64,000 nucleotides of DNA from NCBI RefSeq assembly GCF_000715075.1, contig NC_134103.1, forward strand, positions 53,374,730 to 53,438,729. The letters run 5' to 3'. The notes under the pieces were generated by a model that saw only the letters and a program-made list of their open reading frames with translations, searched no databases and was not told where the DNA came from. The DNA comes from Nicotiana tabacum. Taxonomy: Eukaryota > Streptophyta > Magnoliopsida > Solanales > Solanaceae. Below, in pieces: positions 1-31,474 of the stretch. How positions within the stretch are numbered: the stretch's first letter is position 1; the number at the start of each line of letters is the position of its first letter. The translations under genes and the position numbers were made by a program.

Positions 1-1054
1 GTGCCCTCACACAACAAAAGAGTGTAGTTCCGCACGCCGTAAAAATTTGGAACAATCAGGAACTCAAGATAGAAAGAATTAACTCACTCTCATAAACAAC
101 ATTCATATACCACAAAAGATAAACTATAAGCTTGCCCATAATGTACTACTCTACTAATTGAGTTCATTCAGTAAAGGATCAAGTAGGACTTTAATTGGTT
201 GTAATGTAGGTTGCGGGATGTGTAGGATATATTTGGATATACGAGTGACTACACCTCCCTAAGCACTTTAATACATACAATTTAACATTCAAAACCCCAC
301 ACTTATGGCAAACCATACTCCACCTTAACATCAATATGCATTAACTCCCTTCTTCTTTAAGCACAGTTACGTCAAGAGTTACCACTTATCAAAGATCATT
401 TTTCACAATCATAAAACTACATTAATTTTTATTTTTATTTTTCAATTCAAGTGGCTCTTACTTTTTCATTTCAGTGCACCTTCTCCTTATTTCATTAGTT
501 CCACTCAAAAGCCAACCCAATCACCCCATACTTCAACTTTTACAAAGTTCATACAATTTCAAGTGCTCAAGAGAGGTAAATGGTTCAAATAAATGATCAA
601 TTCAAACAAATGGGTAAGGCTTATAATGTGATTGCCAAAGAAACAGGATTACAGGCTCAACGGGGTTAACTATGATACATAACAAGTTGTTGGGTAAACT
701 ATATAGTTGGCTCAATAAATAAAAGGCCTATATCACTTCCGAGACTGAACAAAACTACTATTTCGCTTTGCAAACACACGGGGCAAGTTCTAGACATCAA
801 ATGCGATGCACATCATACACCAAACCTCACATGCACATGGCACATAACTCACTAAAGATTGGATCATCACAACACTCTAGTCAAAGCAGTTAAGCAAAGT
901 TGAGATTATACGATTTAAGGCACTCATACAAGAGTCAAAAACTGAGCCTAAGCATTACAACCAAAGAACTCACTATTCTCAAGGCATGATCAAGTCAAGA
1001 AATATTGCTTCCATTATCATAGAACAAGGTCTTCCTACTTCTTAAAACAAAATT
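1..1054 (-). repeat. Array unit 1 spacer (partial 3'UTR)
   Basis: This is the spacer of a unit whose left part lies outside the window. Its first bases match positions near 2727 in the next spacer. It is noncoding, AT-rich, and corresponds to the region between the coding remnant and the 3' LTR of the parent element. It runs directly into the LTR at 1055, with no primer-binding site at the boundary. Confidence 0.85.
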
Positions 1055-2487
1055 TGATGAGCCGAAAACACAACACAAAATTATGCTTGCGTGTCGAATA
1101 TAGTATAGAATATATCATATCCACAGGGATTAGATTTAAACAGTGTTTTCGTAGCTTCTAGTTTTAAATGCTATCCAAGATCATCAATAATTTAGAGTTG
1201 TGTGATTTAAAACTAAAATTTACTAAAAGTCTAAACTATTGGCTAATGACAATCGCAACAAGAGTAAGCAAGAAGATATCAAAGGGAGAAAATAGGGGTT
1301 GGTTGGATAGGTGTAAGATGCTTGTTTGGGAATTTACTCTAGTTACTTCACTTCTATGGTTCAAGTGAGTTTCTCAAATTCACTCTATTATGTTCAAACA
1401 TTCAGTAGAAACTCCTCTCTCGATTAAGTCTCAACCTTACGATATGAACTAAGTTAAGCTTGGTGAATATATGCAAGAATTCGTAGTGGATTGATCCTTA
1501 GGAGAACCTCTTTCGATTATCCTCCTAACTAGGTCTAATCATTAATTCAACTAGCCTCTTTCGATTACTAACAAGAATCAATGAATTTAACTAATAAGAT
1601 AATGCAAAACATCACAAATTATACCTCTTTCTAATACATAAACAAGTGAAAATATATGCAACAATAAAAACACCAAAACGCTTGAATATATAAAACTAGA
1701 GTTAATATCCACAAACAATTCTCAAAACACCAAATCCATCAATCCCTAAGGAAGATTTACTCCATGCATATGGAGAAATTCATCACAATTAAGTTTAAGT
1801 CAAGGAAAACATAAAACATCCAAACCCTTATCTTAATTGAGGATGAATGGTGAAATCCTTATGCTCTTGCTTCCCTCTTCTTCTTAGCTTCCTTAGGTCT
1901 AAATTATTTCAAAAGTCCTCAAAATAAATTTTCCCCCTATATATATACCAAGTAGGGTCGGGCCCCAACAAATAAACCTTCTCCTATGCGAAATAGGACA
2001 CTTTTTTTGGACAGGACGTGCGTGGCCGCGCACCTGGCCGCGCACTTTTCACCATGTTCTGCATCATATGCGCGCCTAGTGTGCGGACACTTTTCATTTT
2101 GGAAAACATAAAACATGATAGTTGTAGACCTTTTTAATATCATTCCAACGATAGTTTGTGGAGCCCAAACGGAATTCTGAGCGAAATGTTATGTTCATTT
2201 TACTAGACCCTGCGAAATATGCCTGCTCGATTCTTCGTTTCATTCCACTATCATCCGTTGATCCCCGAACACGATCCTGACTTAATCCTTGTGCTTTTAC
2301 TCAGGCTTCAAAGCTCCCGATTAGCTTGAATTCATTCCATATCATCTACATAGATCGGAATCACTCCTACAAGGCATAAAATACACAATTATTGAAAACA
2401 CTTAGCGATTAAAGATCCAACTCTATTAAAGTGCAGTAAATTAGAGTGCGATAAGCGACTAAAACATGAAATTATAGCCTACCATCA
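1055..2487 (-). mobile_element. Array LTR 1
   Basis: An LTR of 1433 bp, minus orientation. Its plus-strand left edge reads TGATGAGC and its right edge ACCATCA. A TATA run (about 1939-1948) lies inside, preceded in LTR orientation by a CpG-rich palindromic block at about 2017-2090 containing GTGCGTGGCCGCGCAC. The order 5' end, CpG block, TATA, R/U5 agrees with a working LTR promoter layout. No coding potential is claimed. Confidence 0.87.
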
Positions 2488-3781
2488 GCACCCCACACTT
2501 AAACCATTGCTCATCCTCGAGTAATCAAAGTATACTTCATAATGACATGACCTTTTTAAACAACTCTCATAACTCATCATACCAAGAATATTTAAAATAG
2601 ACTAAGCACAATAGTGTAACATCTTCACCTCAAGAATTGATTCATAAGCACCACACATTATTCATAACTTACTCACTTACTCTAATACAGAGGTCAATGA
2701 TATTACCTTTCCTTCATTAATCAACTGCCTTTACACAACAAAAGAGTGTAGTTCCACACGCCATAAACATTTATAACAATAGGGAACTCAAGATAGAAAG
2801 AATTAACTCACTCTCATAAACAACATTCATATGCCACAAAAGATGAACCATAAGCTTGCCCGTAGTGTACTACTCTACTAATTGAGCTCATTCAGTCAAG
2901 GATCAAGTAGGACTTTAATTGGTTGTAATGTAGGTTGCGGGACAGGTAGGATATATTTGTATATAAGAGTGACTACACCTCCCTAAGCACTTTAATACAT
3001 TCAAATTAACATTCAAAACACCACACTTATGGCAAACCATACTCCACCTTAACATCAATATGCATTAACTCCCTTCTTCTTTAAGCACAATTACATCAAG
3101 AGTTACCACATATCAAAGATCATTTTTCACAATCATACAACTACATTAATTTTTATTTTTATTTTTCAATTCAAGTGGCTCTTACTTTTTCATTTTAGTG
3201 CACCTTCTCCTTATTTCATTAGTTCCACTCAAAAGCCAATCCAATCACCCCACACTTCAACTTTTACAAAGTTCATACAATTTCAAGTGCTCAAGAGAGG
3301 TAAATAGTTCAAATAAATGGTCAATTCAAACAAATGGGTAAGGCTTGTAATGTGATTGCCAAAGAAACAGGATTACAGGCTCAACGGGGTTAACTACGAT
3401 ACATAACAAGTTGGTGGGTAAACTATATAGCTGGCTCAACAAAGAAACGCCTATATCACTTCCAAGACTAAACAAAACTACTATTTCGCTTTGCAAACAC
3501 ACGGGGCAAGTTCTAGACATCAAATGCGATGCACATCATACACCAAACCTCACATGCACATGGCACATAACTCACTCAAGATTGGATCATCACAACACTC
3601 TAGTCAAAGCAGTTAAGCAAAGTTGAGATCATACAATTTAAGACACTCATAAAAGAGTCAAAAACTGAGCCTAAGCATCACAACCAAAGAACTCACTATT
3701 CTCAAGGCATGATCAAGTCAAGAAATATTGCTTCCATTTCAAATCATAGAACAAGGTCTTCCTACTTCTTAAAACAAAATT
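2488..3781 (-). repeat. Array unit 2 spacer (3'UTR, primer-binding site deleted)
   Basis: A spacer of 1294 bp. Its left edge, GCACCCCACACTT, is the reverse complement of the polypurine tract next to LTR 1. Its right edge (about 3768-3782) reads AAAACAAAATTTGATGAG, the deletion junction shared by units 1 to 4. No gene is present. Confidence 0.87.
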
Positions 3782-5234
3782 TGATGAGATGAAAACACAA
3801 CAGAAAATTATGCTTGCTTGTCAAATATAGTATAGAATATATCGTATCCACAGGGATTAGATTTAAACAGTGTTTTCGTAGCTTCTCGTTTTAAATGCTA
3901 TCCAAGATGATCAACAATTTAGAGTTGTTTGATTTAAAACAAAAATTTACTAAAAGTCTAAACTATTGGCTAATGACAATCGCAACAAGAGTAAGCAAGA
4001 AGATATCAAAGGGAGAAAATTGGGGTTGGTTGGATAGGTGTAAGATACTTGTTTGGGAATTTACTCTAGTTACTTCACTTCTATGGTTCAAGTGAGTTTC
4101 TCAAATTCACACTATTATGTTCAAACATTCAGTAGAAAATCCTCTCTCGATTATGTCTCAACCTTATGATATTAACTAAGTTAAGCTTGGTGAATATATG
4201 CAAGAATTCGCAGTGGATTGATCCTTAGGAGAACCTCTTTTGATTATCCTCCTAACTAGGTCTAATCATTAATTCAACTTGCCTCTTTCGATTACTAACA
4301 AGAATCAATGAATTCAACCAATAAGATAATGCAAAACATCACAAATTATACCTTTTTCTAATACATAAAGAACTAAAAATATATGTAACAATAAAAACAC
4401 CAAAACGCTTGAATACATAAAACTAGAGTTAATCTCCACAAACAATTCTCAAAACACCAAATCCATCAAGCCCTAAGGAAGATTTACTCCATGGATATGG
4501 AGAAATTCATCACAATTAAGTTTAAGTCAAGGAAAACATAAAACATCCAAACCCTTATCTTAATTGAGGATGAATGGTGAAATCCTTGTGCTCTTGCTTC
4601 CCTCTTCTTCTTAGCTTCCTTAGGTCTAAATTATTTCCAAAGTCCTCAAAATAAATTTTCCCCCTTTATATATACCAAGTAGGGTCGGGCCCCAACAAAT
4701 AAACCTTCTCCTATGCGAAATAGGACACTTTTTTCGGACCGGATGTGCGTGGCCGCGTACCTGGCCGCGCACTTTTCACCATGTTCTACATCATAGGTGC
4801 GCCTAGTGTGCGGACACGCACGTGGGTGGCGTTCTGTTTATCATTTTGGAAAACATAGAACATGAGAGTTGTAGACCTTTTAAATATCATTCCAACGATA
4901 GTTACTGGAGCCCAAATGGAGTTCTGAGCGAAATGTTATGAGCATTTTACTGGACCCTGCGCAATATGCCTGCTCGATTCTTCGTTTCGTTCCACTATCA
5001 TCCGTTGATCCCCGAACACGATCCCGACTTAATCCTTGCGCTTTTACTCAGACTTCAAAGCTCCCGATTAGCTTGAATTCATTCCATATCATCTACATCG
5101 ATCGGAATCACTCCTACAAGGCATAAAATACACAATTATTGAAAACACTTAGCGATAAAAGCTCCAACTCAATTAAACTGCAGTAAATTAGAGTGCGATA
5201 AGCGACTAGAACATGAAATTATAGCCTACCATCA
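3782..5234 (-). mobile_element. Array LTR 2
   Basis: An LTR of 1453 bp, minus orientation, nearly collinear with LTR 1. The TATA run is at 4667-4674 and the CpG-rich block at about 4740-4830. Confidence 0.87.
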
Positions 5235-6527
5235 GCACCCCACACTTAAACCATTGCTCATCCTCGAGTAATCAAAGTATACTTCATAATGACATGACCT
5301 TTTTAAAAAACTCTCATAACTCGTCATACCAAGAATATTTAAAATAGACTAAGCACAATAGTGTAACATCTTCACCTTAAGAATTGACTCATAAGCACCA
5401 CACATTACTCACAACTTACTCACTTACTCTAATATAGAGGTCAACGACATTACCTTTCCTTCATGAATCAAGTGCCCTCACACAACAAAAGAGATTAGTT
5501 CCACACAACATAAATATTTATAACAATCAGGAGCTCAAGATAGAAAAAATTCACTCATTCTCAGAAACAACATTCATATGCCACAAAAGATGAATCATAA
5601 GATTGCCCGTAGTGTACTACTCTACTAATTGAGCTCATTCAGTCAAGGATCAAGTAGGACTTTAATTGGTTGTAATGTAGGCTACGGACAGGTAGGATAT
5701 ATTTGTATATAAGAGTGACTACGCCCCCCTAAGCACTTTAATACATACAATTTAACATTCAAAACACCACACTTATGGCAAACCATACTCTACCTTAACA
5801 TCAATACGCATTAACTCCCTTCTTCTTTAAGCACAATGACATCAAGAGTTACCACATATCAAAGATCATTTTTCACAATCATACAACTACATTAATTTTT
5901 ATTTTTATTTTTCAATTCAAGTGGCTCTTACTTTTTCATTTTAGTGCACCTTCTCCTTATTTCATTAGTTCCACTCAAAAGCCAATCCAATCACCCCACA
6001 CTTCAACTTTTACAAAGTTCATACAATTTCAAGTGCTCAAGAGAGGTAAATAGTTCAAATAAATGGTCAATTCAAACAAATGGGTAAGGCTTGTAATGTG
6101 ATTGCCAAAGAAACAGGATTACAGGCTCAACGGGGTTAACTATGATACATAACAAGTTGGTGGGTAAACTATATAGCTGGCTCAACAATGAAATGCCTAT
6201 ATCACTTCTAAGACTGAACAAAACTACTATTTCTTTTTGCAAACACAAGGGCCAAGTTCTAGACCTCAAATGCGATGCACATCATACACCAAACCTCACA
6301 TGCACATGGCACATAACTCACTCAAGATTGGATCATCACAACACTCTAGTCAAAGTAGTTAAGCAAAGTTGAGATCATACGATTTAAGGCACTCATACAA
6401 GAGTCAAAAACTGAGCCTAAGCGTCACAACCAAAGAACTCACTATTCGCAAGGCATGATCAAGTCAAGAAATATTGCTTCCATTTCAAATCATAGAACAA
6501 GGTCTTCCTAATTCTTAAAACAAAATG
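5235..6527 (-). repeat. Array unit 3 spacer
   Basis: A spacer of 1293 bp, collinear with unit 2. It ends at the same junction (AACAAAATGTGACGAG, about 6518-6533), with the LTR base pattern TGACGAG rather than TGATGAG. Noncoding. Confidence 0.87.
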
Positions 6528-7952
6528 TGACGAGCTAAAAACACAACACAAAATTATGCTCGCTAGTCGAATATAGTATAGAAAATATCATATCCACAGG
6601 GATTGGATTTAAACAGTATTTTCATAGCTTCTAGTTTTAATTGCTATCCAAGATGATCAACAATTTAGAGCTGTGTGATTTAAAACTAAAATTTACTAGA
6701 AGTCTAAACTATTGGCTAATGACAATCACAACAAGAGTAAGCAAGAAGATATCAAAGGGAGAAAATAGGGGTTGGTTGGATAGGTGTAAGATACTTGTTT
6801 GGGAATTTACTCTAGTTACTTCACTTCTATGGTTCAAGTGAGTTTCTCAAATTCACTCTATTATGTTCAAACATTCAGTAGAAACTCCTCTCTCGATTAA
6901 GTCTCAACCTTACGATATTAACTAAGTTAAACTTGGTGAATATATGCAAGAATTCGTAGTGGATTGATCCTTAGGAGAACCTCTTTCGATTATCCTCCTA
7001 ACTAGGTCTAATCATTAATTCAACTAGCCTCTTTCGATTACTAACAAGAATCAATGAATTAAACCAATAAGTTAATGCAAAACATCACAAATTATACCTC
7101 TTTCTAATACATAAACAAGTGAAAATATGTGCAACAATAAAAATACCAAAACGCTTGAATACATAAAACTAGAGTTAATATCCACAAACAATTCTCAAAA
7201 CACCAAATCCATCAATCCCTAAGGAACATTTACTCCATGGATATGGAGAAATTCATCACAATTAAGTTTAAGTCAAGAAAAACATAAAACATCCAAAACC
7301 TTATCTTAATTGAGGATGAATGGTGAAATCCTTGTGCTCTTGCTTCTCCCTCTTCTTCTTAGCTTCCTTAGGTCTAAATTATTTCAAAAGTCCTCAAAAT
7401 AACATTTTTTCCTGTATATATACCAAGTAGGGTCGGGCCCCAACAAATAAACCTTCTCCTACGCGAAATAGGACACTTTTTCCGGACAAGTCGTGCGTGG
7501 CCGCGCACTTTTCACCATGTTTTGCCTCATAGGTGTTCCCAATGCGCGCCCAGTGTGCGGATGCGCACATAGGTGGCGTTCTGTTTGTCTTTTTGGAAAA
7601 CATAAAACATTAGAGTTGTAGACCTTTTAAATATCATTCCAACGATAGTTTGTGGAGCCCAAACGGAGTTCTGAGCGAAATGTTATGTGCAGTTTACTGG
7701 AACATGCACAATATGCCTGCTCGATTCTTCGTTTCGTTCCACTATCATCCGTTGATCCCCGAACACGATCCCGACTTAATCCTTGCGCTTTTACTCAGAT
7801 TTCAAAGCTCCCGATTAGCTTGAATTCATTCCATATCATCTACATAGATCGAAATTACTCCTACAAGGCATAAAACACATAATTATTGAAAACACTTAGC
7901 AATTAAAGCTCCAACTCAATTATTGAAAACATAAAATTATAGCCTACCATCA
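6528..7952 (-). mobile_element. Array LTR 3
   Basis: An LTR of 1425 bp, minus orientation. The TATA run is at 7415-7422 and the CpG-rich block at about 7491-7575. A small deletion close to its 5' end (around 7915-7935) removes bases seen in the other LTRs. Confidence 0.87.
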
Positions 7953-9164
7953 GCACCCCACACTTAAACCATTGCTCATACTCGAGTAATCAAAGTATAC
8001 TTCATAATGAAATGACCTTTTTAAACAATTCTCATAACTCATCATACCAAGAATATTTAAAATAGACTAACCACAATAGTGTAACATCTTCACCTCTAGA
8101 ATTGACTCACAAGCAGCACACATTATTCACAACTTACTCACTTACTCTAATACAAAGGTCAACAATATTACCTTTCCTTCATGAATCAACTGCCTTTACG
8201 CAACAAAAGAGAGTAGTTCCATACACCATAAAAATTTATAACAATCAGGAACTCAAGATAGAAAGAATTCGCTCTCTCTCAAAAACAACATTCATTTGCC
8301 ACAAAAGTTGAACCATAAGCTTGCCCGTAGTGTACTACTCTACTAATTGAGCTCATTCAGTCAAGGATCAAGTAGGACTTTAATTGGTTGTAATGTAGGC
8401 TGCGGGACAGGTAGAATATATTTGTATATAAGAGTGACTACACCTCCCTAAGCACTTTAAAACATACAATTTAACATTCAAAACACCACACTTATGGCAA
8501 ATCATACTCCACCTTAACATCAATATGCATTAATTTTTATTTTTATTTTTCAATTCAAGTGGCTCTTACTTTTTTATTTTAGTGCACATTCTCCTTATTT
8601 CATTAGTTCCACTCAAAAGCCAACACAATCACCCCACACTTCAATTTTTACAAAGTTCATACAATTTCAAGTGGTCAAGAGAGGTAAATGGTTCAAATAA
8701 ATGTTCAATTCAAACAATTGGGTAAGGCTTGTAATGTGATTGCCAAAGAAACTGGATTACAGGCTCAATGGGGTTAACTACGATACATAACAAGTTGGTT
8801 GGTAACTATATAGCTGGCTCAACAAAGAAATGCCTATATCACTTCCAAAACTGAACAAAACTACTATTTCGCTTTGCAAACACACGGGGCAAGTTCTAGA
8901 CATCAAATGTGATGCACATCATATACCAAACGTCACATGCACATGGCACATAACTCACTCAAGATTTTATCATCACAACACTCTAGTCATAGCAGTTAAG
9001 CAAAGTTGAGATCATACGATTTAAGGCACTCATACAAGAGTCAAAAACTGAGCCTAAGCGTCACAACCAAAGCACTCACTATTCTCAAGGCATGATCAAG
9101 TCAAGAAATATTGCTTCCATTTCAAATCATAGAACAAGGTCTTCCTACTTCTTAAAACAAAATT
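7953..9164 (-). repeat. Array unit 4 spacer with an internal deletion
   Basis: A spacer of 1212 bp, about 80 bp shorter than units 2 and 3. The missing segment is bounded by the short repeat ATTA (junction near 8530, GCATTAATTTTT), which fits deletion between short direct repeats after the units were already in tandem. The right junction with the LTR matches units 1 to 3. Confidence 0.85.
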
Positions 9165-10606
9165 TGATGAGCTGAAAACACAACACAAAATTATGCTTGC
9201 TTGTCGAATATAGTATAGAATATATCATATCAACAGGGATTGGATTTAAACAGTGTATTCGTAGCTTCTAGTTTTAAATGCTATCCAAGATGATCAACAA
9301 TTTAGAGTTGTGTGATTTAAAACTAAAATTTACTAAAAGTCGGAACTATTGACTAATGACAATCGCAACAAGAGTAAGCAAGAAGATATCAAAGGGAGAA
9401 AATAGGGGTTGGTTGGATATGTGTAAGATACTTGTTTGGGAATTTACTCTAGTTACTTCACTTCTATGGTTCAAGTGAGTTTCTCAAATTCACTCTATTA
9501 TGTTCAAACATTCAGTAGAAACTCCTCTCTCGATTAAGTCTCAACCTTACGATATTAACTAAGTTAAGCTTGGTGAATATATGCAAGAAATCGTAGTGGA
9601 TTGATCCTTAGGAGAACCTCTTTCGATTATCCTCCTAACTAGGTCTAATCATTAATTTCACTAGCCTCTTTCGATTACTAAAAAGAATCAATGAATTCAA
9701 CCAATAAGATAATGCAAAACATCACAAATTATACCTCTTTCGATTACACAAAAAAGTGAAAATATATGCAACAATAAAAACACCAAAACGCTTGAATACA
9801 TAAAACTAGAGTTAATATCCACAAACAATTCTCAAAACACCAAATCCATCAATCCCTAAGGAAGATTTACTCCATGGATATGGAGAAATTCATCACAATT
9901 AAGTTTAAGTCAAGGAAAACATAAAACATCCGAACCCTTATCTTAATTGAGGATGAATGGTGAAATCCTTGTGCTCTTTCTTCTCCCTCTTCTTCTTAGC
10001 TTCCTTAGGTCTAAATTATTTCAAATATCCTCAAAATAACGTTTTTCCTTGTATATATATTCCAAGTAGGGTCGGGCCCCAACAAATAAACCTTATTCTA
10101 CGCGAAATAGGATACTTTTTCCGGATAGGACGTGCGTGGCCGCGCACTTTTCACATGTTCTGCCTCATATGCGTGCCAAATGCGCGCCCAGTGCGCGGAT
10201 GCGCACGTGGGTGGTGTTCTGTTTGTCATTTTGGAAAACATAAAATACCTTTTAAATATCATTCCAACGATAGTTTGTGTAGCCCAAACGGAGTTCTGAG
10301 CGAAATATTATGTGCATTTTACTTGACCCTGCGCAATATGCCTGCTCGATACTTCACTTCGTTCCACTATCATCCGTTGATCCCCGAACACGATCCTGAC
10401 TTAATCCTTGTGATTTTACTCAGACTTCAAAGCTCCCGATTAGCTTGAATTCATTCCATATCATCTACATAGATCGGAATCACTCCTACAAGGCATAAAA
10501 CACACAATTATTGAAAACACTTAGCGATTAAAGCTCCAACTCAATTAAAGTGCAGTAAATTAGAGTGCGATAAGCGACTAAAACATGAAATTATAGCCTA
10601 CCATCA
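9165..10606 (-). mobile_element. Array LTR 4 (also the 3' LTR of the full-length copy)
   Basis: An LTR of 1442 bp, minus orientation. The TATA run is near 10052-10060 and the CpG-rich block at about 10130-10215. It serves both as the last LTR of the short-unit array and as the 3' LTR of the longer element at 10607-14852, so array and full-length copy share it. Confidence 0.87.
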
Positions 10607-10623
10607 GCACCCCACACTTAAAC
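10607..10623 (-). other. Polypurine tract (3' PPT)
   Basis: On the minus strand the bases just before the LTR start read AAGTGTGGGGTGC. The same tract borders LTRs 1 to 3 at 2488, 5235 and 7953. This is the usual site for plus-strand DNA priming in LTR retroelements. Confidence 0.75.
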
Positions 10624-12127
10624 CATTGCTCATCCTCGAGTAATCAAAGTATACTTCATAATGACATGACCTTTTTAAACAACTCTCATAACTCATCATA
10701 CCAAGAATATTTAAAATAGACTAAGCACAATAGTGTAACATCTTCACCTCAAGAATTGACTCATAAGCACCACACATTATTCACAACTCACTCACTTACT
10801 CTAATATAGAGGTCAACGATATTATCTTTCCTTCATGAATAAACTGGCTTTACACAACAAAAGAGAGTAGTTCCACACACCATAAAAATTTATAACAATC
10901 AAGAACTCAAGATAGAAAGAATTCACTCACTCTCATAAACAACATTCATATGCCACAAAAGATGAACCATAAGCTTGCCCGTAGTGTACTACTCTACTAA
11001 TTGAGCTCATTCAGTCAAGAATCAAGTAGGACTTTAATTGGTTGTAATGTAGGCTGGGGGACAGGTAGGATATATTTGTATATAAGAGTGACTACACCTC
11101 CCTACGTATTTTAATACATACAATTTAACATTCAAAACACCACACTTATGGAAAACCATACTCCACCTTAATATCAATATGCATTAACTCCCTTCTTCTT
11201 TAAGTACAATTACATCAAGAGTTACCACTTTTCAAAGATCATTTTTCACACTCAAACAACTATATAAATTTTTATTTTTATTTTTCAATTTAGTGCACAT
11301 TCTCCTTTTTTCATTAGTTCCACTCAAAAGCCAACCCAATCACCCCACATTTCAACTTTTACAAAGTTCATACAATTTCAAGTGGTCAAGAAAGGTAAAT
11401 TGTTCAAATAAATGGTCAATTCAAGCAAATGGGTAAGGCTTGTAATGTAATTGCCAAAGAAACAGTATTACAGGCCCAGCAAGGTTAACTACGATACATA
11501 ACAAGTTGGTGGGTAAACTATATAGTTGGCTCAACAAAGAAACGTCTATATCTCTTCCAAGACTGAACAAAACTACTATTTCGCTTTGCAAACACACGGG
11601 GCAAGTTCTAGACATCAAATGCAATGCACAGAATACACCAAACCTCACACGCACATGGCACATAACTCACTTAAGATTGGATCATCACAACACTCTAGTC
11701 AAAGCAGTTAAGCAAAGTTGAGATCATACGATTTAAGGCACTCATAAAAGAGTCAAAAACTGAGCCTAAGCGTCACAACCAAAACACTCACTATTCTCAA
11801 GGAAATTTCAAGTCAAGAGATTTTTCTTCCATTTCAAATCATAGCACAAGGTTTTCCTACTTCTAAAAATAAAAATCTAACTACACCCGGTTCAAACGAA
11901 ATCCTTGGAAAAAAACTGCGGCACAAATAAAAATCAAAGGGTAATTAATACACTAACTTCAAAATAAAATCATTTTTTCTTTTTCATTCAACTTAATTCC
12001 CTCATGAAACCCATCGAATGAGATCCATTGTCGGGAAAAGTCAAAAATTTTAAAATTTTATGTTTTTCTTTCCAATTTTTTTCTCTATCTCTACTACTCA
12101 AACTAACAAAAGAAAACTAAAACTAAT

Positions 12128-12232
12128 ATACATACATACATACATACATATAACATATCCCCCACCCTACACTTTAAATTGTGGCATGTCCCCATGACAC
12201 ATAACTAAAAAGCATAAGGTAAAGAAACTTCC
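12128..12232 (-). other. Conserved block: TGTA repeat, PPT-like tract and hairpin
   Basis: Minus-strand order: ATGTGTCATGGGGACATGCC (an imperfect hairpin), then AAAGTGTAGGGTGGGGGA, then a (TGTA)n run. The same block recurs in the plus-oriented copy at about 63370-63475 with only a handful of differences over about 105 bp, although surrounding sequence differs more. The G-rich run resembles the true PPT at 10607, so it may be a second polypurine tract upstream of the 3'UTR. Confidence 0.6.
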
Positions 12233-12291
12233 CTGAATTTTCTTTTTTTCCGAGAACTTATGAACTCCACCCCTGATTCTGAATTTATTCC

Positions 12292-13154
12292 TCATTTTCG
12301 CTCCTTGGGATTCTTTATGGAGCTCATTAAGCCCAATTCTTCAAAGGATACTTGCAAGACCCGCTCTTTTCTTTCTTTCTTGTCCTCATCTTGAGCGGTG
12401 AATTGCTCGTTCATGATGATCCTTAACTTATTTCTGCATTCTTTGACATGATCAATCCATACATATTCCTGTAAATCCCCAAAAATAAAATACACATGAT
12501 CAAGGTTAGAATAAGAAAACAAAGAAGAAATGTCAAGTGAATAATCTTATGGTATGTCCAAGACTATTTGTTTTTCATTCTCTTCTACCAAATGTTGCAA
12601 ATGTGGAAAGGTGGATGGGAGTTTGAACTCTTCTTTCGTTGCTTCACACTCAACCATAACCTTATTTTCAATCATCTCAGTTGAATCAGAGTCATCTTGA
12701 ACAGTGAAAATCACTCTCTGTGGATGCTCATCCTCTTGGGTAGGCTCATTTTTACAGGGTATCTCCTCCATATATTCACCATCATAACGCAATGAGCTTT
12801 CTGAAAGTGTACTTATTATTTGACTTTCTTGCATTGTAAGGTTGTTCATGACTTCATCATCTTGTGTAAACTTCCATTCTCCCGTTGACGTGGTTTTCTC
12901 AATTCGCTTCCATTCCAGTTATAATAAGGGTATTCATCCCAACCAGAGTCAAGATTGTGCCCATATGAATCCTCATACCTATATGGACTAGAAATAGAGT
13001 GAGACTGTTCAAATTAGGAACCGTAGGAGGAACACATACCTGCTTGATAGTTAAGCCATGGATGATTTCCACCGTATTAAAAACACATAGCAGACCGCTG
13101 ATAATATTCAGCTGCTAACTCTTCAAACATTTTCTTAGGCTGGTTGCACTCCAT
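12292..13154 (-). pseudogene. Degenerate short coding region of the non-autonomous element
   Basis: A minus-strand reading frame starts at an ATG (13154), MECNQPKKMFEELAAEYYQR, and runs with two in-frame stops to about 12850. It continues in a shifted frame as a 100-residue acidic stretch (12849-12547, MNNLTMQESQ...) and, in a further open stretch, 76 residues at 12522-12292 rich in Lys and Glu. The middle is rich in Tyr, Ser and Gly (positions around 12900-13050). I do not recognise a catalytic domain. By position, directly after the primer-binding site, it should be what remains of gag or a gag-like leader protein. It cannot be translated as one protein. The function is unknown. Confidence 0.5.
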
Positions 13155-13341
13155 CTTCACAACATTTAGAGTTCAATATCTACAGTATCTTCTCCAACTT
13201 ATTAGGAACTACAAAACAAATCTTGAAAAGAAGTTAACTAATAATGAAAATAAAATAGAAATGGAAAAATAAAAGAAAAAAAACTAAAACTTAATTCCTG
13301 AATTAGCACTACAAACTATTTCAAACAGTATTAACTGCCAA

Positions 13342-13359
13342 TCCCCGACAACGGTGCCA
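13342..13359 (-). other. Primer-binding site, tRNA-Asp type
   Basis: On the minus strand this reads TGGCACCGTTGTCGGGGA, five bases downstream of the LTR end. It differs at two positions, both C-to-T or G-to-A type, from TGGCGCCGTTGCCGGGGA, which is complementary to the 3' end of plant tRNA-Asp and typical of Athila/Tat elements. It occurs once in the array; the four short units have lost it. Confidence 0.85.
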
Positions 13360-13364
13360 AAATT

Positions 13365-14852
13365 TGACGAGATGAAAACACAACATTAAATTATGCTCGC
13401 TAGTCGAATATAGTATAGAAAATATCGTATCCACAACGATTGGATTTAAACAGTATTTTCGTAACTTTTACTTTTAATTGCTATCCAAGATGATCAGCAA
13501 TTTAGAGTTGTGTTATTTTAAACTAAAATTTTCTAAAAGTTTAAACTATTGGCTAATGACAATCGCAACAAGAATAAGCAAGAAGATATCAAAGGGAGAA
13601 AATAGGGGTTGATTGGATAGGTATAAGATACTTTTTTGGGAATTAACACTAGTTACTTCACTTCTATGGTTCAAGTGAGTCTCTCGAATTCAATCTATTA
13701 TGTTCAAACATTCAGTACAAAATCCTCTCTCAATTAAATCTCAACCTTACGATATGAACTAAGTTAAGCTTGGTGAAGATATGCGAGAATTCGTAGTGGA
13801 TTGATCCTTAGGAGAACCTCTTTCGATTATTCTCCTAACTAGGTCTAAACATTAATTCAACTAGCCTCTTTCGATTACTAACAAGAATCAATAAATTCAA
13901 CCAATAAGATAATGCAAAACATCACAAATTATGCCTTTTTCGATTGCATAAATAAGTGAATATATATGCAACAATAAAAACACCCAAAATACTTTAATAC
14001 ATAAAATTAGAGTTAATATCCACAAACAATTCTCAAAATACCAAATCCATCAATCCCTAAGGAAGAATTACTCCATGGATATGGAGAAATTCATCACAAT
14101 TAAGTTTAAGTTAAAGGAAAACATCAAACATCGAAACCCTTGTCTTTAGTGAGGATGAATGGTGAAATCTTTGTGCTCTTGCTTCTCCTTGTTCCCCTTA
14201 GCTTCCATAGGTCTAAACTATATCAAAAGTCATCAAAATACCGTTTTTCCCTGTTTATATACCAAGTAGGGTCAGACCCAAACAAATACACCTTCTCCTA
14301 CGCGAAATAGGACACTTTTTCCAGACACGACGTGCACGGCCGCGCACCTGGAATTGTGCTCGCGCACCTGGCCGCGCACTTTTCACCCTGTTCTGCCTCA
14401 TATGCGCGCCCAATGCGCGCCTAGTGCGTGGCCGCACAAGTGGGTGGTGTTATATTGGGAATTTGGGAATATGTAAAACATGAAGGTTGTATCCCTTTTA
14501 AATATCTTTCCAACGATATATTGTGTATCTCAATCGGAGTTCCTAGCGAAAAGTTATGTGCATTTTACTGGACACTGCGCAATATGCCTGCTCGATTCTT
14601 CGTTTCGTTCCACTATCACTCGTTGATCCCCAAACATGATTCCAACTTAATCCTTGGGCTTTTACTCTGACTTCAAAGCTCCAAAATAGCATGGATTCAT
14701 TCCATAACATATACATCGATCGAAATCACTCCTACAAGGTATAAAACACACAATTAGTGCAAAACACTAGCGATTAAAGCTCCAACTCAATTAAAGTGCA
14801 GTAAATTAGAGTGCGATAAGCGACTAAAATATGAGATTATAGCCTACCATCA
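13365..14852 (-). mobile_element. Array LTR 5 (5' LTR of the full-length copy, right end of the array)
   Basis: An LTR of 1488 bp, minus orientation, with edges TGACGAG and ACCATCA. The TATA region is weaker than in the other copies (TTATAT, about 14255-14260). The bases just outside (14853-14857) are ACAAT, the candidate right target-site duplication of the whole array. Confidence 0.87.
14328..14440 (-). promoter_or_regulatory. CpG-rich palindrome cluster in array LTR 5
   Basis: Several GC-rich self-complementary words lie in about 110 bp, including CACGGCCGCGCACCTGG, TGGCCGCGCAC and ATGCGCGCC. The cluster sits upstream of the TATA region in LTR orientation. The surroundings are strongly AT-rich, so it stands out sharply. 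It is present in all five array LTRs. A role in promoter control is inference. Confidence 0.6.
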
Positions 14853-17337
14853 ACAATTTAATTTTGCGAAAGTGCAAATTTAGATATATAAACTCACACA
14901 CTATGATATATACTACTAACTCCCACTGACCCATAATGATATTTGAAAATGAAAGAAGGGAGTATGAAATATGAAGTACAGCCAAAGTGCCAAGAATGAT
15001 ATTGCGTTATGAAAAATGGTGTCAATGAAATGAATGATATGTAAAAGAATATGAGATGAGTGGTAAATCATGTTAATAGCCTGGGGAGCATCGTTTAGCC
15101 ACCGAGGAAGGGTAGGTCAAAATAATCCAACCCCGAAACTACACGTGCTGGTGTAGGAGTGATTGAGGGGTAAATCCCCGTGTTAATATGACGAGGGTGT
15201 TTCCACTTATATGGGATGAGATTGATGAATTGATATGTTTACCCTCAAGTGGGATGAGATTATTGCTAGCGATATGTGATGTGATGTCGATCCACACGAA
15301 ATTGTGGTGAGACAACTTAGCCGATCGGGCTGAGATCGGATGCCTTGCCGCGCACATGGTAGTATTATGAGTGGATGTCTCGAGGTGAGACGCCTTAGAC
15401 GATCGGGATAAGATCGGACTCCGTGCTAAAAACACGGTGGTGTATCGGTGCTAAAGATCTCCCAACTTAAAAAGATTGAAATTTACTTGAAATTTACTTT
15501 TCCCCTAATTCGACACCTTGAAACTGTTTGAGTCTCTTAATGATTTTATGTTTCCTTCTCCATTTACTATTATTCATTCTATAAAGACTGTGTTTAGTTT
15601 TACATACTAGTACTATTCCATATGTACTAGCGTCCTTTTTGCCGGGGGTGCTGCATCTTTAATGGATGCAGGTGGTTCCACAGCAGGTGGTATTGATCAG
15701 TGGTAGCAGCACACCCTCTCCTTAGCTGACTTGGTGAGCCCCACTTCATTTCGGGGTCCTGTATCTCTCGTCCTTTGTACATAGTATTTTGAGGTATAGT
15801 CGGGGCCTTATTGCCGGCCCTGTCTTAACACTCTTTTGTTTATGTCAGAGCCTCTGCAGACATAGTGTGGGATGTATCCTATTTTGGGAAGACTAATATA
15901 AAAATATTATAATCGTATCATCTATTCCACTTTAACTATGATTATATAGTGTACTATTTTGGAGACTTGTTAATGATGTAACCTATGGAAATGAACCGGT
16001 GTTGTACACATGACCTCTTACCGTCTAATTAATGAAATGTATTTTTATCTTTATTCATGGGTGAGTAGGGTAGACGGCATTGTGCAGGCTTGCTCAGATT
16101 ATCCAAGTTGCGGCTAAATCGTTGAAGCTAGAACTTGTGAGATTTCTATTGAAAGGCTAGTTAGTAATGTTGTTGGTTGGTGGACTATTTTGGGAGGCTT
16201 AATATCATTATTATTGATGTTGTTTGGGCTGTTTTGTGATTTTTTAAACTTATGGGAAGTCATATAAATAAGGGAGGTACTGTTGGTATCATCATAAAAT
16301 AGGTTGCGGTCAATATATAATAATTACGACACTTAAACGATAATGATAGTGTAATTTCTCTTATTGTAGACTAAGGAGTCGTGACATTTGCATAGCTTGA
16401 GGTTGGGTAGTATATACAAGATATGTGAGGCTATCCCTTTTCTTCTTTTGCACAACTCCGATTGTACATAATGTAATGAATGAGCTTCCAAAGGTACTCC
16501 ACTCTTAGAAGCTAGCAGTACTTATATTGTTTCCTTTCTTAAGAAACACTTGATGTTGATGCTGATTCCCTTATTCTTATGTTAATAATGTTGTTGGTAC
16601 TTCATGATTCTTATAATATTCATGATGAAGGGTTATTCCTAATAACGGGTGCGGAGGATACCGACCCTACGTCACTCTGAGAGGTTTAGAATGTGATTCT
16701 AATGTGTCCAGCATGAATTTTATATATGTACCTATTTTACTCTACCGAGTCATGCTATAATTGGCCAGGTACGGCACCTATTGTGCAATGACTGATCAGT
16801 TGGTTTTTACCGAGCTCCACGTGGCCGGGTACAATTCTATCGAGCCTTATAATAGCCGGGTACGTTTTTACCGAGCCTATTACGGTAAGGTACGATATGA
16901 TGATGATGATGCCCACAGAGGAGTATGTTTTTAAAAGTATATGTGTGTATATATATATATATGTATGTATCATGCATTTCATGTTAGTCCCCCTCAGAGG
17001 CACTTAGATGCTAGAGGTTGTATATTCTCTATCCCTGCTTATATTATTGTTCTTATTTACTCAGTACATTCTTGATATTGATGTCCCTTTTATTTGTGGA
17101 CGTTGCATGTCATGCTGCAGGTCCTGGTAGACAGGTAGACGCAGCTCCCCCACCATAGTAGGCTGCCCAGTTCAGCAGTTATTGGCGAGATCCCTTCTCT
17201 GGACTTGTCGTGGTCTTGGTATGCATTTTTGTTATCGACGTTATGGGTATGTCGGGGCCTGCTCCGGGAATGTTGCAGCACTTATGTTCCTTTAGAGGCT
17301 CATAAACAGGTGTCAACTCATGTATAGTTTGGATTGA
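14853..17337 (+). mobile_element. Plus-strand LTR 'P', left part (Ty3/gypsy type)
   Basis: This noncoding sequence has the character of long Solanaceae gypsy LTRs: blocks such as CCGATCGGGCTGAGATCGG, GTGAGCCCCACTTCATTTCG and AGTCGGGGCCTTATTGCC, and the late-LTR phrase around 17095-17300. Its start is cut by the array at 14852. It is interrupted at 17337 by the solo LTR and resumes at 21287. No coding sequence is visible; open stretches on the minus strand are low quality. Confidence 0.7.
15600..15860 (+). repeat. Conserved LTR module, copy 1 (plus)
   Basis: About 260 bp containing TGGATGCAGGTGGTTCCACA, GTGAGCCCCACTTCATTTCG and a CGGGGCCTTATTGCC phrase. The same ordered words occur in reverse complement at about 17640-17930 inside the solo LTR, although flanking LTR sequence is much less alike. 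Confidence 0.65.
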
Positions 17338-17639
17338 TGTCACGCCCTGGCCTCGGGGAGCGCGACCGGTGCTCAACCGAGATAACCCGGTCAAGAAAGC
17401 CTGCTAGGTACTTTCTACTCGACCTTGCCCATGAATAGAGTCGAGATGTATCCCATTATATAAACATTGAGAGGATTTCATAATCAACACCAATCATATT
17501 ACCATTTATAAATTCGTTCACGATTTGTTTTTCTTCCAAAATATTTTTACACATTCATAGTTTAGCAGTGAAAATATGTGACACAAATCCAACATTTCTA
17601 GTTTGATTTTTGTTTGCCAAAACCAAGATATAACCCACA

Positions 17640-17930
17640 CTATATCTACGGAGCCTCTAAGTACAACATAAGAGTTGTATGGAAGTGTCGGTGACAAGGC
17701 CCCGGCTATACCTCAAAACACTGTACACATGAAGCCAAAAGAGACAAGACCCCGATATGAAGTGGGGCTCACCATGTCTGCTGAGAGGAGTATGTACTGC
17801 TATCACTAATCAATACCGCCTGCTGTGGAACCACCTGCATCCATTAAAAAATGCAGGGCCCTCGGCAAAGTGGACGTGAGTACATTTGGAATAGTACTCA
17901 TATGTAAGGTAGACAGAACAACATATGAAA
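17640..17930 (-). repeat. Conserved LTR module, copy 2 (minus)
   Basis: This is the reverse complement of the 15600-15860 module, with matching phrases such as AGTGGGGCTCACCATG and GTGGAACCACCTGCATCCAT. It lies near the 3' end of solo LTR S, a comparable place to its position in LTR P. Confidence 0.65.
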
Positions 17931-18194
17931 ATACGGTAACTCAAATAAGAGGCAAATGAAGTATATCAAGAAACTATGGAACGACCCATAGAATCACATG
18001 TCAAGACTTATTATACTTACATTATTCTGCACTTCTTTTGAGATCAAGTGAGCTATATGAACTATGCATGGGATACAAAATATAATGTAAATGTAACAAC
18101 ATGTACAAACAAAGGAAATGAAAGCGGCACCTATTATTCGTGCTACCTATGTGTCTCACTAGACCGTCCATAGCCCTCTCTCAACATGCACCTA

Positions 18195-18780
18195 TGCATT
18201 TCACAAACCGTTCATAGGATCACATATACAATACACTTATGTGTTTCATAGACCGTCCATAGGATCACCTATACAATACACCTATGCATTTCATAGACCA
18301 TCCATAGGATCACCTATACAATACACCTATGCGTTTCATACACCGTCCATAGGATCATCTATACAATAGGATCACATATACAATACACCTATGCATTCCA
18401 TACACCGTCCATAGGATCACCTCTACAATACACCTATGCATTTAATAAACCGTCCATATGATCACCTATGCAATACACCTATGCGTTTCATAAATCATCT
18501 ATAGGATTACCTATACAACTATGCATTTCATAGACCGTCCATATGATCACCTATACAATACACATATGCATTTCATAGACCATCCATAGGATCACCTATA
18601 CAATACACCTATGTGCTTCATAGACCGTCCATAGGATCATCTATACAATACGCCTATATATTTCATAGACCGTCCATAGGATAACCTATACAATACACCT
18701 ATGAATTTCATGCATCGTCCATAGGATCCATTCATACCATACACAATGCACCTATGCGTTCAAAGACCGTCCATAGGGCT
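18195..18780. repeat. 45 bp minisatellite inside solo LTR S
   Basis: About 13-14 degenerate copies of a roughly 45 bp unit containing CACCTATGCATTTCATAGAC and CGTCCATAGGATCACC. The CGTCCATAGG landmark recurs near 18253, 18298, 18343, 18405, 18451, 18536, 18581, 18627, 18670, 18716 and 18768. Each unit includes CCTATG and CATAGG, so it can fold into a short stem. It is shorter around 18361 and 18495, where units are partly deleted. Confidence 0.85.
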
Positions 18781-19975
18781 CATAAAACATAATTATGCAC
18801 ATGACCATATATAAGCTCAAGTGACATGATTAACATTACATTTAAGGTCGTAAGTTCTCGGATCATTGGAATACTTCATGTTCATTCTCATCATGGAGAA
18901 ACACAACTCATTACATTAGCACATGTATGGTAGATAAATGAGTAGATTTCAATGGCACATGGGCCAAATTCTTTTTCCATAAGATTTATCATCATTAGCA
19001 TAAGACATCTCTCTTTCATCTCGTTATATACTCTATTGCCATCTTAAGGTCATTAGCTTAGTTCATATTTCTTGGGGACATAACATCGAAGTCATTTACA
19101 TTTATTATTTTATAAGCATACATACTATGATTGAAACCATTAGAACATATAATGCCTCAAAATTCTCATTTTGGCAAGCAACCACATTTCATATTCATAC
19201 TATCAATTCCTTTTACTTGCCATGGGTGACCAGAGATCAATAAGAGCATTTAAAACATTTATAAACTCTATATCCTTTACTCATGAGAACGTAAGAGTTT
19301 ATAACACATAGGAAATGCTTATAAAAGAGAGCATGGTGATTTACGACTGAAACACTGGTTCAAATCATTGGTATTAGTTTAGAACAACCACATTTGAACA
19401 CGACTTGAGTACATGAGCCTTTTAGGCAAATCTATTTTCGAAGTCAATTTAGAACAGTTGAATCAAGGCTCATTTCATAATCTTTCACATATCAATTCAT
19501 TTCATTGGCACCATTGGCCATAAGTATAACTTTCATTCTTGGCACTGTGGCCACACTATATATCTCCAACACACTTCTCTCACTTTCAAGCATCTTTATA
19601 GATTATCAACCATAGGAGAATTTAAAATCAAGGCCTTAAGTATATATATGAGCAATAGGAGTTTTAGGCGCATTGAGTATTCTTTCCAAATTAAGCAAAA
19701 TGGACTTTCATTTGAAATATGAATTGAAGTTATAACGCTTTAACACATAAACCATACTCAAAAACACATTCTCGAAGGAGATCATGGTGATATAGGAGTT
19801 AGAACACATTTTGAGTACATACATCTTTCGACACTTTGCTTACTCGGGATAATCAAATTTATTAGGAATAACTCGGAATATGGGAATTAGGGACCTGGGC
19901 CAACTATACTTGAAACTTACGGGAACATCATGGAATTCAATTCTAAGAAAGAAGTTTTAGCCAACATACCTGAAG

Positions 19976-23680: not shown

Positions 23681-23685
23681 AGATA
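23681..23685. other. Left target-site duplication of element 1 (AGATA)
   Basis: AGATA directly precedes the 5' LTR start TGTTACACC. The same five bases follow the 3' LTR end at 38890-38894. A 5 bp duplication is the rule for Ty3/gypsy integration. Confidence 0.88.
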
Positions 23686-26037
<2,352 letters not shown>

Positions 26038-26041
26038 AAAG

Positions 26042-26230: not shown

Positions 26231-26886
26231 ATGCCTAAGAAGGCTACAGCCACCTAGAAGGGCAAGTTCGTGGCTAATGAAACTACGAGTCGAGCACCAC
26301 GAGTTACTAAGGGTCGGGGAGAATCTCAGAGTGAGACTCCATCTTAGACTTCACATACCTTGCCCTCTCCATAGGAGATCCGCGGGGCATCCGCTCCAGC
26401 ACCTGCCCCAGTTCCCCCAGCTCCGCAACCAGATGCACCGGGTGAGAAGATGAGAGATGCTATTCAGCTATTGACTCGATTAGTGGCTGCACAGGCTTGG
26501 CGCCAGGAAGAAGGTATTGGTCATGCAGATAGGGCCATCAGTGTAAGGGTTCGTGATTTCATTAATTTGGACCCTCCGGTATTCACTAGAGCAGATCCAA
26601 ACGAGGACACTCATGTATTTATAGATAGGATGTAGAGGACTTTGAGGGTAATGAAGGCCACTACGACTGAGTCAGTTGAGCTAGCTTCTTCTAGACTTTC
26701 GGATGTTGCAGTTAATTGGTACGAGTTTTGGGAGTTGTCCAGAGGGAGTATGCCCTTCCAGCAGTATGGTAGGAGTTTACAGAGGCTTTCATCATCATTA
26801 TTTGCCACCAGAGCTTAGACGGGCCAGAGTTGATAGGTTTGTGACCCTTCGGCAGGGTAATATGAGTGTTCGGGAGTACAACCCTC
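26231..26886 (+). pseudogene. gag fragment of element 1
   Basis: It starts at ATG 26231 (MPKKATAT) with several TAG stops where Gln or Trp would be expected. A Pro-rich stretch (26390-26430) leads to the gag core: DAIQLLTRLVAAQAWRQEE, then RVRDFINLDPPVFTRADPNE and FIDRM, a stop, RTLRVMKATTTESVELAS, and NWYEFWELSRG. After a frameshift near 26745 it continues as HYLPPELRRARVDRFVTLRQ and GNMSVREY. Gag forms the virus-like particle. The C-terminal part with the zinc knuckle is missing because the sequence switches at about 26886 to antisense integrase of element 2. Similarity to chromovirus gag is clear by eye. Confidence 0.82.
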
Positions 26887-27690
26887 AAATGGGGCCATCT
26901 CGATACTGGACTGATAACTGTTATTGTAAGCAAACTTGGCCAATGGCAAGAACTAATCACATTGTCCCCCAAAGTCAATCATTCATGCTCTCAGCATGCC
27001 CTCCAATATTTGAACTGTCCGCTTTGACTGCCCTTCGGTCTGTAGATGAAACGTTGTGCTGAGCTCTATACGGGTCCCCAACTCACTCTATATGGCTCTT
27101 CAGAAATGTGAAATGAACTGAGGGCCTCTATCTGATATGATGGAAATAGGCACACCATGCAACCGAAGTATGTCCCTAATATAAATCTGAGCCAATTTCT
27201 CTTAAGTATGTGTAGTCACAACCAGAATGAAGTGTGCCGACTTGGTCAATCTGTCGACAATGACCTAAACTGCATCAAACTTCCGCAAGGTCTGCAGAAA
27301 TCTAACTATGAAGTCCATAGTGATGCGCTCCCATTTCCACTCAGGTATAGTCATCTTTTGATGTAGGCCACCTAGCCTTTGGTGCTCTTACTTGACCTGC
27401 TGGCAATTTAGACACCTAGCTACATACTCCACTATGTCTTTCTTCATCCGCCACCACCAATAATGTTTTCTCAAGTCACGATACATCTTCGTAGCACCTG
27501 GGTGAATAGAATACCGAAAACTGTGTGCCTCCTCTAGAATCCTCTCCCTCAAGCCATCAACATTAGGAACACATAGACGACCTTGGAGTCGCAGAACACC
27601 ATCCTCGTCAATAGAAACTTCTATAGCACCACCCTATAGTATCGTCTCTCTAAGAACTGCCAAGTGCAGATCATCAATCTGTCAGGCCTT
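26887..27690 (-). pseudogene. Integrase fragment of element 2
   Basis: The minus strand encodes the second half of the zinc-binding region and most of the catalytic core, with many stops and shifts. Recognisable pieces are the Cys-containing CLNCQQ-type end near 27400, AHFI-type text near 27235 and PISIISDRGPQF near 27130. The third catalytic region reads poorly (about 27040). Homologous intact text lies at 44561-45526 in element 3. It ends abruptly at the fusion with element 1 gag. Confidence 0.75.
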
Positions 27691-27693
27691 GAT

Positions 27694-28257
27694 CTACCCC
27701 AATAATGAAGACTGAGCAACAAAACATACAAGAACTCGGCTGGGCTCTGAAATATCCAACCTCACATGTCTGTTAGCCAAGGACTGAATGTCCAAATCTA
27801 GTGGCCTCTTCTCCGCTGAAATAAATGCCAAGCTACCCACACTCTCTGCCTTCTTGCTTAAGGCATCCGCGACCACATTTGTCTTGCCCGGATGATAAAG
27901 AATGGTGATGTCGTAATCCTTCAGTAACTCGAGCCATCTACGCTGCCTCAAATTGAGATCCCTTTGCTTGAATAAATGCTGTAAGCTGTGATGATCAGTA
28001 TAAACCTCACATGACACCCCATAAAGATAATGCCTCCATATCTTAAGAGCATGAACAATCGCGGCTAACTCCAAATCGTGCACAGGATAATTCTTCTCAT
28101 GAATCTTCAGCTGACGTGAAGCATGTGTAATAACTCGCCCCTCCTGCATCAATACACAACCCAAGCCAACGCGTGAAGCATCGCAATATACTGTATACAT
28201 CCCTGAGCCGGAAGGCAACACTAGAACTCGTGCTATAGTCAAAGCTATCTTGAGCTT
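27694..28257 (-). pseudogene. RNase H region of element 2
   Basis: An open stretch of 182 residues. The RNase H core shows [18 protein letters not shown] (first Asp), [20 protein letters not shown] (Glu), [13 protein letters not shown] (Asp) and [10 protein letters not shown] (Asp), so all four acidic positions are kept. The linker to integrase follows ([17 protein letters not shown]). RNase H would degrade the RNA strand during reverse transcription. The frame closes at 27694, where integrase should continue. Confidence 0.82.
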
Positions 28258-29046: not shown

Positions 29047-29070
29047 ACGGTACGGTGGGATAGATATAGG

Positions 29071-29690: not shown

Positions 29691-29699
29691 TTTGTCCTA

Positions 29700-31282: not shown

Positions 31283-31459
31283 CTGTGAGAGAATAGAAGA
31301 AGGAAATTTAGTATATCATCAATTGCACGATAGAAGATGAATAATGAGTAGTTTCCTAACAACCCATAGCCTCTCGAAGATAAGTACGGACGTCTCCGCA
31401 CCGAACCGCAAAACTCTACTAGGCCTTCCCATAACTTGTGAGACCTACGTAAACCTAGT

Positions 31460-31471
31460 GCTCTGATACGA
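31460..31471 (-). other. Primer-binding site of element 2, initiator-Met type
   Basis: Minus strand TCGTATCAGAGC, one mismatch from TGGTATCAGAGC. It lies three bases beyond the LTR end at 31475. Confidence 0.78.
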
Positions 31472-31474
31472 TAT

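Follow-up and report, generated by a model that had tools for sequence, protein, structure and literature searches.

A closed tandem of LTR and 3'UTR segments in Nicotiana tabacum, probably grown in place from a Ty3/gypsy-like composite

Tandem arrays built from pieces of long terminal repeat (LTR) retrotransposons are known from several plants. In maize, the tandem units of CRM1TR and CRM4TR consist wholly of LTR and untranslated region (UTR) of a Ty3/gypsy element, and their authors favour an origin by gene conversion while leaving unequal exchange or rolling circles possible (PMC3648361). Sobo of Solanum bulbocastanum, in the Solanaceae, is a satellite with a long, LTR-related unit, cited as 4.7 kb repeated over about 360 kb (PMC3648361, PMC9659126), and NicCL3 is a 2.2-kb, partly Ty3/gypsy-like tandem repeat that accounts for 1.6-1.9% of the genome of Nicotiana tomentosiformis (PMC3351487). 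The tandem LTR-retrotransposons surveyed in rice and other plants alternate LTRs with internal segments and have an LTR at both ends; whether such elements inserted ready-made or recombined after insertion was left open by that 2025 survey (PMC11899658). Here we describe a head-to-tail array of LTR and 3'UTR segments in tobacco (Nicotiana tabacum), found in a 64-kb stretch of contig NC_134103.1 (positions 53,374,730 to 53,438,729), hereafter the window. The initial annotation of this window rightly held that the principle of LTR-derived arrays is known, and the nearest cases in the literature compared are the maize repeats, the rice tandems and, within Nicotiana, NicCL3.

The array adds to this known kind of LTR-derived tandem, and the evidence for its origin is unusually direct. 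As in CRM1TR and CRM4TR, its unit is made entirely of LTR and UTR; CRM units, however, hold a partial LTR and come from centromeric chromoviruses (PMC3648361), whereas the tobacco unit carries a complete LTR, lacks both the primer-binding site (PBS) and the internal part, and, unlike the CRM repeats, is present in four copies flanked by two outer LTRs of the family it comes from. Compared with Sobo, the unit is shorter (2.7 kb) and the copies are four. The 28 selected tandems of the rice survey hold coding domains (PMC11899658), whereas the tobacco array has a PBS-less repeated segment, is older, lacks a target-site duplication and preserves crossover points. NicCL3 resembles it in genus, in having a long unit and in its partial likeness to Ty3/gypsy elements, but the tobacco array was seen at one locus. 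Identity with NicCL3 was considered and rejected: nowhere in the 16.6-kb array do the four NicCL3 primers fit with fewer than 5 to 7 substitutions, and NicCL3 is cut once each by BamHI and SpeI (PMC3351487), whereas the array lacks BamHI sites and carries its one SpeI site in LTR1. Among the literature matches listed, with most subscription journals outside the coverage, no title or opening of an abstract described this family or a PBS-less array of LTR and 3'UTR in tobacco.

Self-comparison of the window revealed direct repeats spaced 2.6-2.75 kb from base 1 to 11.9 kb, the LTR portion of which is seen again at 13.36-14.86 kb; self-alignments such as 93.6% identity over 5.85 kb would not arise by chance. 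In the sense of the array, which is the minus strand, the order is LTR1-PBS-internal-U1-LTR2-U2-LTR3-U3-LTR4-U4-LTR5-U5, where U stands for the 3'UTR. The LTRs measure 1.42-1.49 kb and the complete 3'UTRs 1.21-1.29 kb. Coordinates are positions in the window, and negative values denote DNA to its left, of which 40 kb was fetched from the assembly:

13365..14852, minus strand: LTR1, the outer 5' LTR of the composite, TGATGG...CTCGTC(A)
13342..13359, minus strand: PBS, which we take to be of tRNA-Asp type, with 2 differences from TGGCGCCGTTGCCGGGGA
11881..13364, minus strand: internal part, unique to the fuller element, with a decayed open reading frame at 12547-12918
10607..11880, minus strand: U1, a chimeric 3'UTR, first part family-type and second part array-type (20 diagnostic sites, split trees)
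9165..10606, minus strand: LTR2, the first inner LTR
7953..9164, minus strand: U2, a 3'UTR fused straight to LTR2 without a PBS, with an 81-bp gap
6528..7952, minus strand: LTR3, inner, with a deletion of about 32 bp in common with LTR2
5235..6527, minus strand: U3, 3'UTR
3782..5234, minus strand: LTR4, inner, with another deletion, of about 20 bp, in common with LTR5
2488..3781, minus strand: U4, 3'UTR
1055..2487, minus strand: LTR5, inner
1..1054 and on to -236, minus strand: U5, a chimeric 3'UTR, first part array-type and second part patchy and mostly family-type
-1711..-237, minus strand: LTR6, the sixth LTR, which closes the array, in the DNA fetched left of the window

With LTR1 to LTR6 alternating with five internal segments and an LTR at both ends, the locus has the layout of a tandem LTR-retrotransposon. 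The annotated head-to-tail units of about 2.7 kb, four complete or partial, are borne out: inside the window three are complete (LTR2+U2, LTR3+U3, LTR4+U4) and one is cut by the left edge (LTR5+U5). The family appears to be Ty3/gypsy-like and probably non-autonomous; no reverse transcriptase was seen in the fuller element, whose decayed reading frame best matches a hypothetical protein of N. attenuata (84% over 87%) and then an N. tomentosiformis sequence at 73% (three matches in all). A search with another protein of the window listed at least 120 matches, spread over several plant genera. The Pfam match for window protein P0001 falls below the cut-off, and Rfam returned no families in the window. 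Transfer RNA-Asp is among the primers of non-chromoviruses (PMC6317226), and one family copy (L005) carries the exact PBS motif. For a place in the OTA (Ogre/Tat/Athila) group of Ty3/gypsy elements, the signs at hand are this PBS type and a protease-like fragment, judged by eye, in a related element.

All four LTR/UTR junctions share a single breakpoint, at which the LTR ending in AAATTTTG runs directly into TTTTAAGAAGTAGG, with one copy reading ACATTTTG and AATTAGG instead. None of the four junctions has a PBS, and the only PBS-like site in the window (within 3 edits of the tRNA-Asp-type motif) adjoins LTR1, which agrees with the earlier statement that the short units lack one. A polypurine stretch, TTTAAGTGTGGGGTGC, precedes each of the four inner LTRs. 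In the family copies read across this site, the sense strand of the 3'UTR is TTTTGTTTTTAGAAG, and the LTR end plus PBS is AAATTTTGG. The TTTTG common to both sides points to a microhomology deletion, which could reflect either repair or an aberrant strand transfer during reverse transcription. Self-priming in place of the PBS was tried and rejected, as the 30 bases after the LTR end had no reverse-complement match of at least 8 bases to the LTR in any of the four units.

The shared breakpoint also bears on whether the units are short elements that inserted independently side by side, or an artefact of assembly. Clustering of insertions is conceivable given 9469 first-look LTR candidates in the genome, a figure that says nothing specific about this locus. 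However, each LTR passes straight into UTR at the same breakpoint in four of four junctions, and no target duplication lies between units, contrary to what separate insertions with their own duplications would leave. Three of the four units carry private gaps (13 bp in LTR2, 81 bp in U2, 29 bp in LTR3 and 20 bp in LTR5; no gap of at least 4 bp is private to LTR4+U4). Because the units carry these gaps together with private substitutions, a simple assembly duplication is unlikely. With the divergence among inner LTRs (pairwise K of 0.046-0.068) and the absence of the junction elsewhere among the places scored below, independent insertion or artefact seems scarcely credible.

To the left of the window, U5 ends at -236 and is followed by LTR6 and then by unrelated flank; beyond LTR6, the 40 kb fetched holds no more matches to LTR, internal part or UTR of the family. 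The complete locus spans 16,564 bases. In a search of the 4.0-Gb genome with a 161-base junction query, for which a two-sided match is expected to outrank one-sided ones, the best 40 of 2022 candidates were scored. Both sides of the junction were joined at four of these 40 places, all in this array; the remaining 36 were one-sided (25 on the UTR side and 11 on the LTR side), and all 25 UTR-half places run from UTR into ordinary internal part and not into an LTR end. The junction was likewise absent from all 29 other LTR loci fetched (L002-L030). Because a sixth LTR ends the array and, among the places scored, the junction was seen in this array only, we describe the locus not as a satellite of open-ended size but as a composite of 16.6 kb, closed at both ends, in which four units have been amplified. 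Thus, the array does pass the left edge of the window, as first annotated, yet the proposed satellite of unknown copy number closes 1.7 kb further on, and extension to the left yielded, of this family, the rest of U5 and LTR6, not the many collinear units that would have supported a satellite. Local homogenisation of head-to-tail units, as in a satellite, is present (one inner clade, neighbours sharing deletions); a long array, or many arrays at high copy number, is not, and a genome-wide satellite is not supported within the 40 places scored.

In another family copy (L046 at C24:25522246, with L003 at C24:25525098), a 3'UTR is followed by another internal piece, an arrangement that may be a duplication of internal end and UTR without an LTR between.

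What is actually repeated emerges from the first and last UTRs. We selected 20 diagnostic sites that are fixed in U2-U4 and rare among 12 family UTRs. At these sites U1 shows eight family-type states, one gap and then 11 array-type states, a single clean switch with a chance of 2.6e-5 in random order, whereas U5 begins with eight array-type states and continues as a mosaic of seven family and five array states. The first switch falls after U position 254 in both. In the split trees, U2-U5 group together without U1 in the 5' part (97/94; 16 rows, one of 17 dropped for gaps), and U1-U4 group without U5 in the 3' part (99/98; 17 rows). U1 and U5 are thus reciprocal chimeras, the second part of U5 being patchy, and the outer pieces keep the order of one plain element once the repeats are removed. 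The true repeat is therefore 3'UTR(3' part)-LTR-3'UTR(5' part), in four copies, and both of its ends lie within the 3'UTR, between about U position 254 and 586-750.

We built a tree of 35 LTRs. This tree, comprising the six of the array and 29 family copies that were among the best matches to LTR1 and are not a random sample, places LTR2-5 in one clade (100/100) with a stem of 0.037 and tips of 0.019-0.030. Mean K is 0.0585 among the inner LTRs (range 0.046-0.068) and 0.106 among the 29 family LTRs (406 pairs, standard deviation 0.013), a ratio of 0.55. The inner LTRs lie at K 0.121-0.130 from LTR1 and 0.104-0.118 from LTR6. Because the inner LTRs are a single clade, joined at about 55% of the depth of the family, the amplification followed insertion and, judging by sequence divergence, is roughly half as old as the spread of the family. 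A rate of 1.3e-8 would give about 2 versus 4 million years, and we use the ratio alone. By pairwise alignment, LTR2 and LTR3 share one deletion (about 32 bp), and LTR4 and LTR5 a different one (about 20 bp). A single 32-33 bp deletion common to all of LTR2-5, suggested by a first alignment, was dropped when pairwise alignment resolved it into these two. Both deletions fall within roughly columns 376-625 of the LTR alignment, where the sequence is GC-rich, hypervariable and contains short direct repeats.

These ages weigh on the idea that the tandem arose as a whole in the course of reverse transcription, or by read-through of transcription, and entered the genome in one step as a multi-LTR element. 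The regular head-to-tail arrangement would fit, and the first deletion could have been an aberrant plus-strand transfer, given that the break falls where LTR and PBS meet, some two bases inside the PBS. A tandem inserted ready-made, however, would show inner and outer LTRs of equal age, whereas the inner LTRs join, after their stem, more recently than they split from LTR1 or LTR6. The outer ends also lack a duplication, and a second locus of the family, described next, has a middle LTR that is a crossover product of LTRs already differing by 7-10 per 100 in their last part. We consider insertion at once very unlikely.

This second locus (C18; L066/L067, G000:C18:4363501-4375500) has the structure LTR(a)-U-internal-LTR(b)-U-internal-LTR(c), with repeats 98.07% identical over 5241 bp and ATGCT at both outer ends, a perfect 5-bp duplication. 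It is thus a tandem of the kind surveyed in rice, with a matching duplication (PMC11899658). Its middle LTR agrees with a at 71 of 74 informative sites to the left and with c at 33 of 33 to the right of one switch, located between alignment columns 1013 and 1021, with six more sites private to b; none of 20000 shuffles matched this single-switch pattern. Because LTRs a and c had diverged (7-10 per 100 in the last part), the C18 duplication arose long after insertion, by crossover between LTRs, and it lends direct support to the unequal-crossover step proposed below for the array. The C18 period of 4.29 kb agrees with the distance from LTR1 to LTR2 in the window (4.25 kb), which places the fuller element in the same internal length class. 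Five other family LTR pairs are spaced 5.7-5.85 kb (four) or 3.9 kb (one), and this variation indicates several internal lengths in the family.

The outer LTRs of the array share no target-site duplication: in the array sense, ATTGT precedes LTR1 and GGATT follows LTR6, matching at one of five positions, and the outer ends of both are intact. As a control, all six solo LTRs and all five LTR pairs of the family match at three or more positions, six of the 11 at all five. Among the solo LTRs, L009, L012 and L013 match at 5/5, L022 and L030 at 4/5 and L028 at 3/5; among the pairs, L005/L016, L006/L010 and L004/L019 match at 5/5 and L017/L018 and L021/L025 at 3/5. A perfect 5-bp duplication was found in 10 of the 28 rice tandems and is thus not obligatory (PMC11899658). 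The five family pairs are sisters in the LTR tree, and LTR1 and LTR6 are not. The composite likely derives from two parental insertions, as far as flanks and tree can tell. With U1 chimeric, LTR1 holding none of 37 array-specific LTR states (LTR6 has three) and no common duplication at the outer ends, the fuller element, which had been described as looking like the parent, is not a simple one.

Taken together, we think it probable that the locus is a composite of one Ty3/gypsy-like family that grew in place by a microhomology deletion plus unequal homologous exchange. First, a deletion across TTTTG would have fused an LTR end to the 3'UTR, with loss of the PBS and internal part; the joint itself is observed, and the repair route is our proposal. 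Second, recombination within an LTR would have set the deleted segment behind a fuller element, giving LTR1-internal-Ua-LTRx-Ub-LTR6, probably from two different insertions, as the absent duplication and the separate positions of LTR1 and LTR6 suggest; the order of these two steps is one that we infer. Third, and much later, unequal crossovers between mispaired 3'UTRs would have raised the copy number of the segment "3' part of U - LTR - 5' part of U" to four. The chimeras, the inner clade and its younger age are observed, and the crossover that we infer as the cause has direct support from C18. Finally, local exchange would have kept neighbours alike, as the shared deletions suggest. The initial view that exchange at the DNA level, and not reverse transcription in this form, spread the units therefore stands, while the rolling-circle-like route it allowed is not required.

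Several observations weigh against this account. In the tree of the 3' part, U5 branches off just outside U1-U4 (91/92), and its second part carries five array-type states, so that one more conversion or exchange, at the least, must have taken place. The LTR tree leaves LTR1 and LTR6 in an unresolved fork, and their K of 0.105 (confidence interval 0.087-0.123) overlaps that of true pairs (0.070-0.097), so the case for two insertions draws mainly on the absent duplication. Rare states shared by the inner LTRs number 7-9 with LTR6 and 1-6 with LTR1 (family median 3, 90% value 7) and do not decide from which of the two they descend. Moreover, a circular LTR-UTR molecule integrating by homologous recombination would give the same chimeric U1 and U5.

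Such a circle, with one LTR and the 3'UTR, as a single molecule or a rolling-circle multimer, would have integrated into the 3'UTR of a resident element. The reciprocal chimeras with switches in overlapping intervals fit this, as does the distance of the inner LTRs from LTR1 and LTR6, which is about that of family copies from one another. However, the resident element should then have one target-site duplication, and none is seen; no junction-bearing donor was found elsewhere among the 40 places scored; and the divergence among inner LTRs and the deletions shared by neighbours demand later exchanges in any case. We regard a circle as unlikely, and growth in place by deletion and unequal exchange as the better account.

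The surroundings are rich in other elements. A second, unrelated head-to-tail array, in plus sense, extends from -18641 to about -2899 (L031-L033), about 1.2 kb from LTR6, with nine units of 1.59-1.65 kb plus partial ends; another partial stretch lies at -36904..-34589. Its units are 87-95% alike, the edge unit R9 being the most diverged. Each carries the C-terminal part of pol, in which a chromodomain-like stretch was recognised by eye, together with the 3'UTR, the polypurine tract and about the first 0.76 kb of an LTR of chromovirus type. A young chromovirus-like element at -30380..-20071 has 2.5-kb LTRs that are 99.6% identical, a tRNA-Met-type PBS at -27848 and exact NicCL7 primer sites in both LTRs. 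At the other end of the window, from 61914 to 64000 and on to 66319 (L035), lies a related element in opposite orientation, in which a truncated LTR is joined to a fragment that by eye resembles a protease; family 3'UTR and a second LTR follow. Over 900 bp its LTRs are 87% alike. Diverged Ty3/gypsy copies pair 23681-26038 with 36453-38890 (84% alike) and 26880-31984 with 45118-50216 (81%), and Pfam recognised parts of a reverse transcriptase, an RNase H, an integrase and a protease within 44.6-48.4 kb, as well as an RNase H at 27.7-28.3 kb. A minisatellite at 18218-18728 (18096 to 18785 by self-comparison) has 11.1 copies of a 45-bp unit (TRF), and an imperfect inverted repeat of about 310 bp (15600-15906 and 17599-17907) has arms 78% alike and about 1.7 kb apart.

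On the question left open for tandem LTR elements, the two loci of this family, the C18 tandem and the array of the window on C24, speak for recombination after insertion. They also suggest simple tests for tandems in other plant assemblies, namely whether the outer LTRs have recombined to give the middle one and whether the first and last UTR switch reciprocally. More tentatively, and with the balance tilting somewhat against it, the genome could hold successive stages in the birth of satellites from retrotransposons: a doubling by crossover of two diverged LTRs of one insertion at C18, a PBS-less segment multiplied within the 3'UTR at C24, and the nine-unit chromovirus-derived array, with a similar layout and more copies; the region beside the C24 array would then be a hot spot of recurrent exchange. 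The array looks small and closed, yet it shows how satellites can begin.

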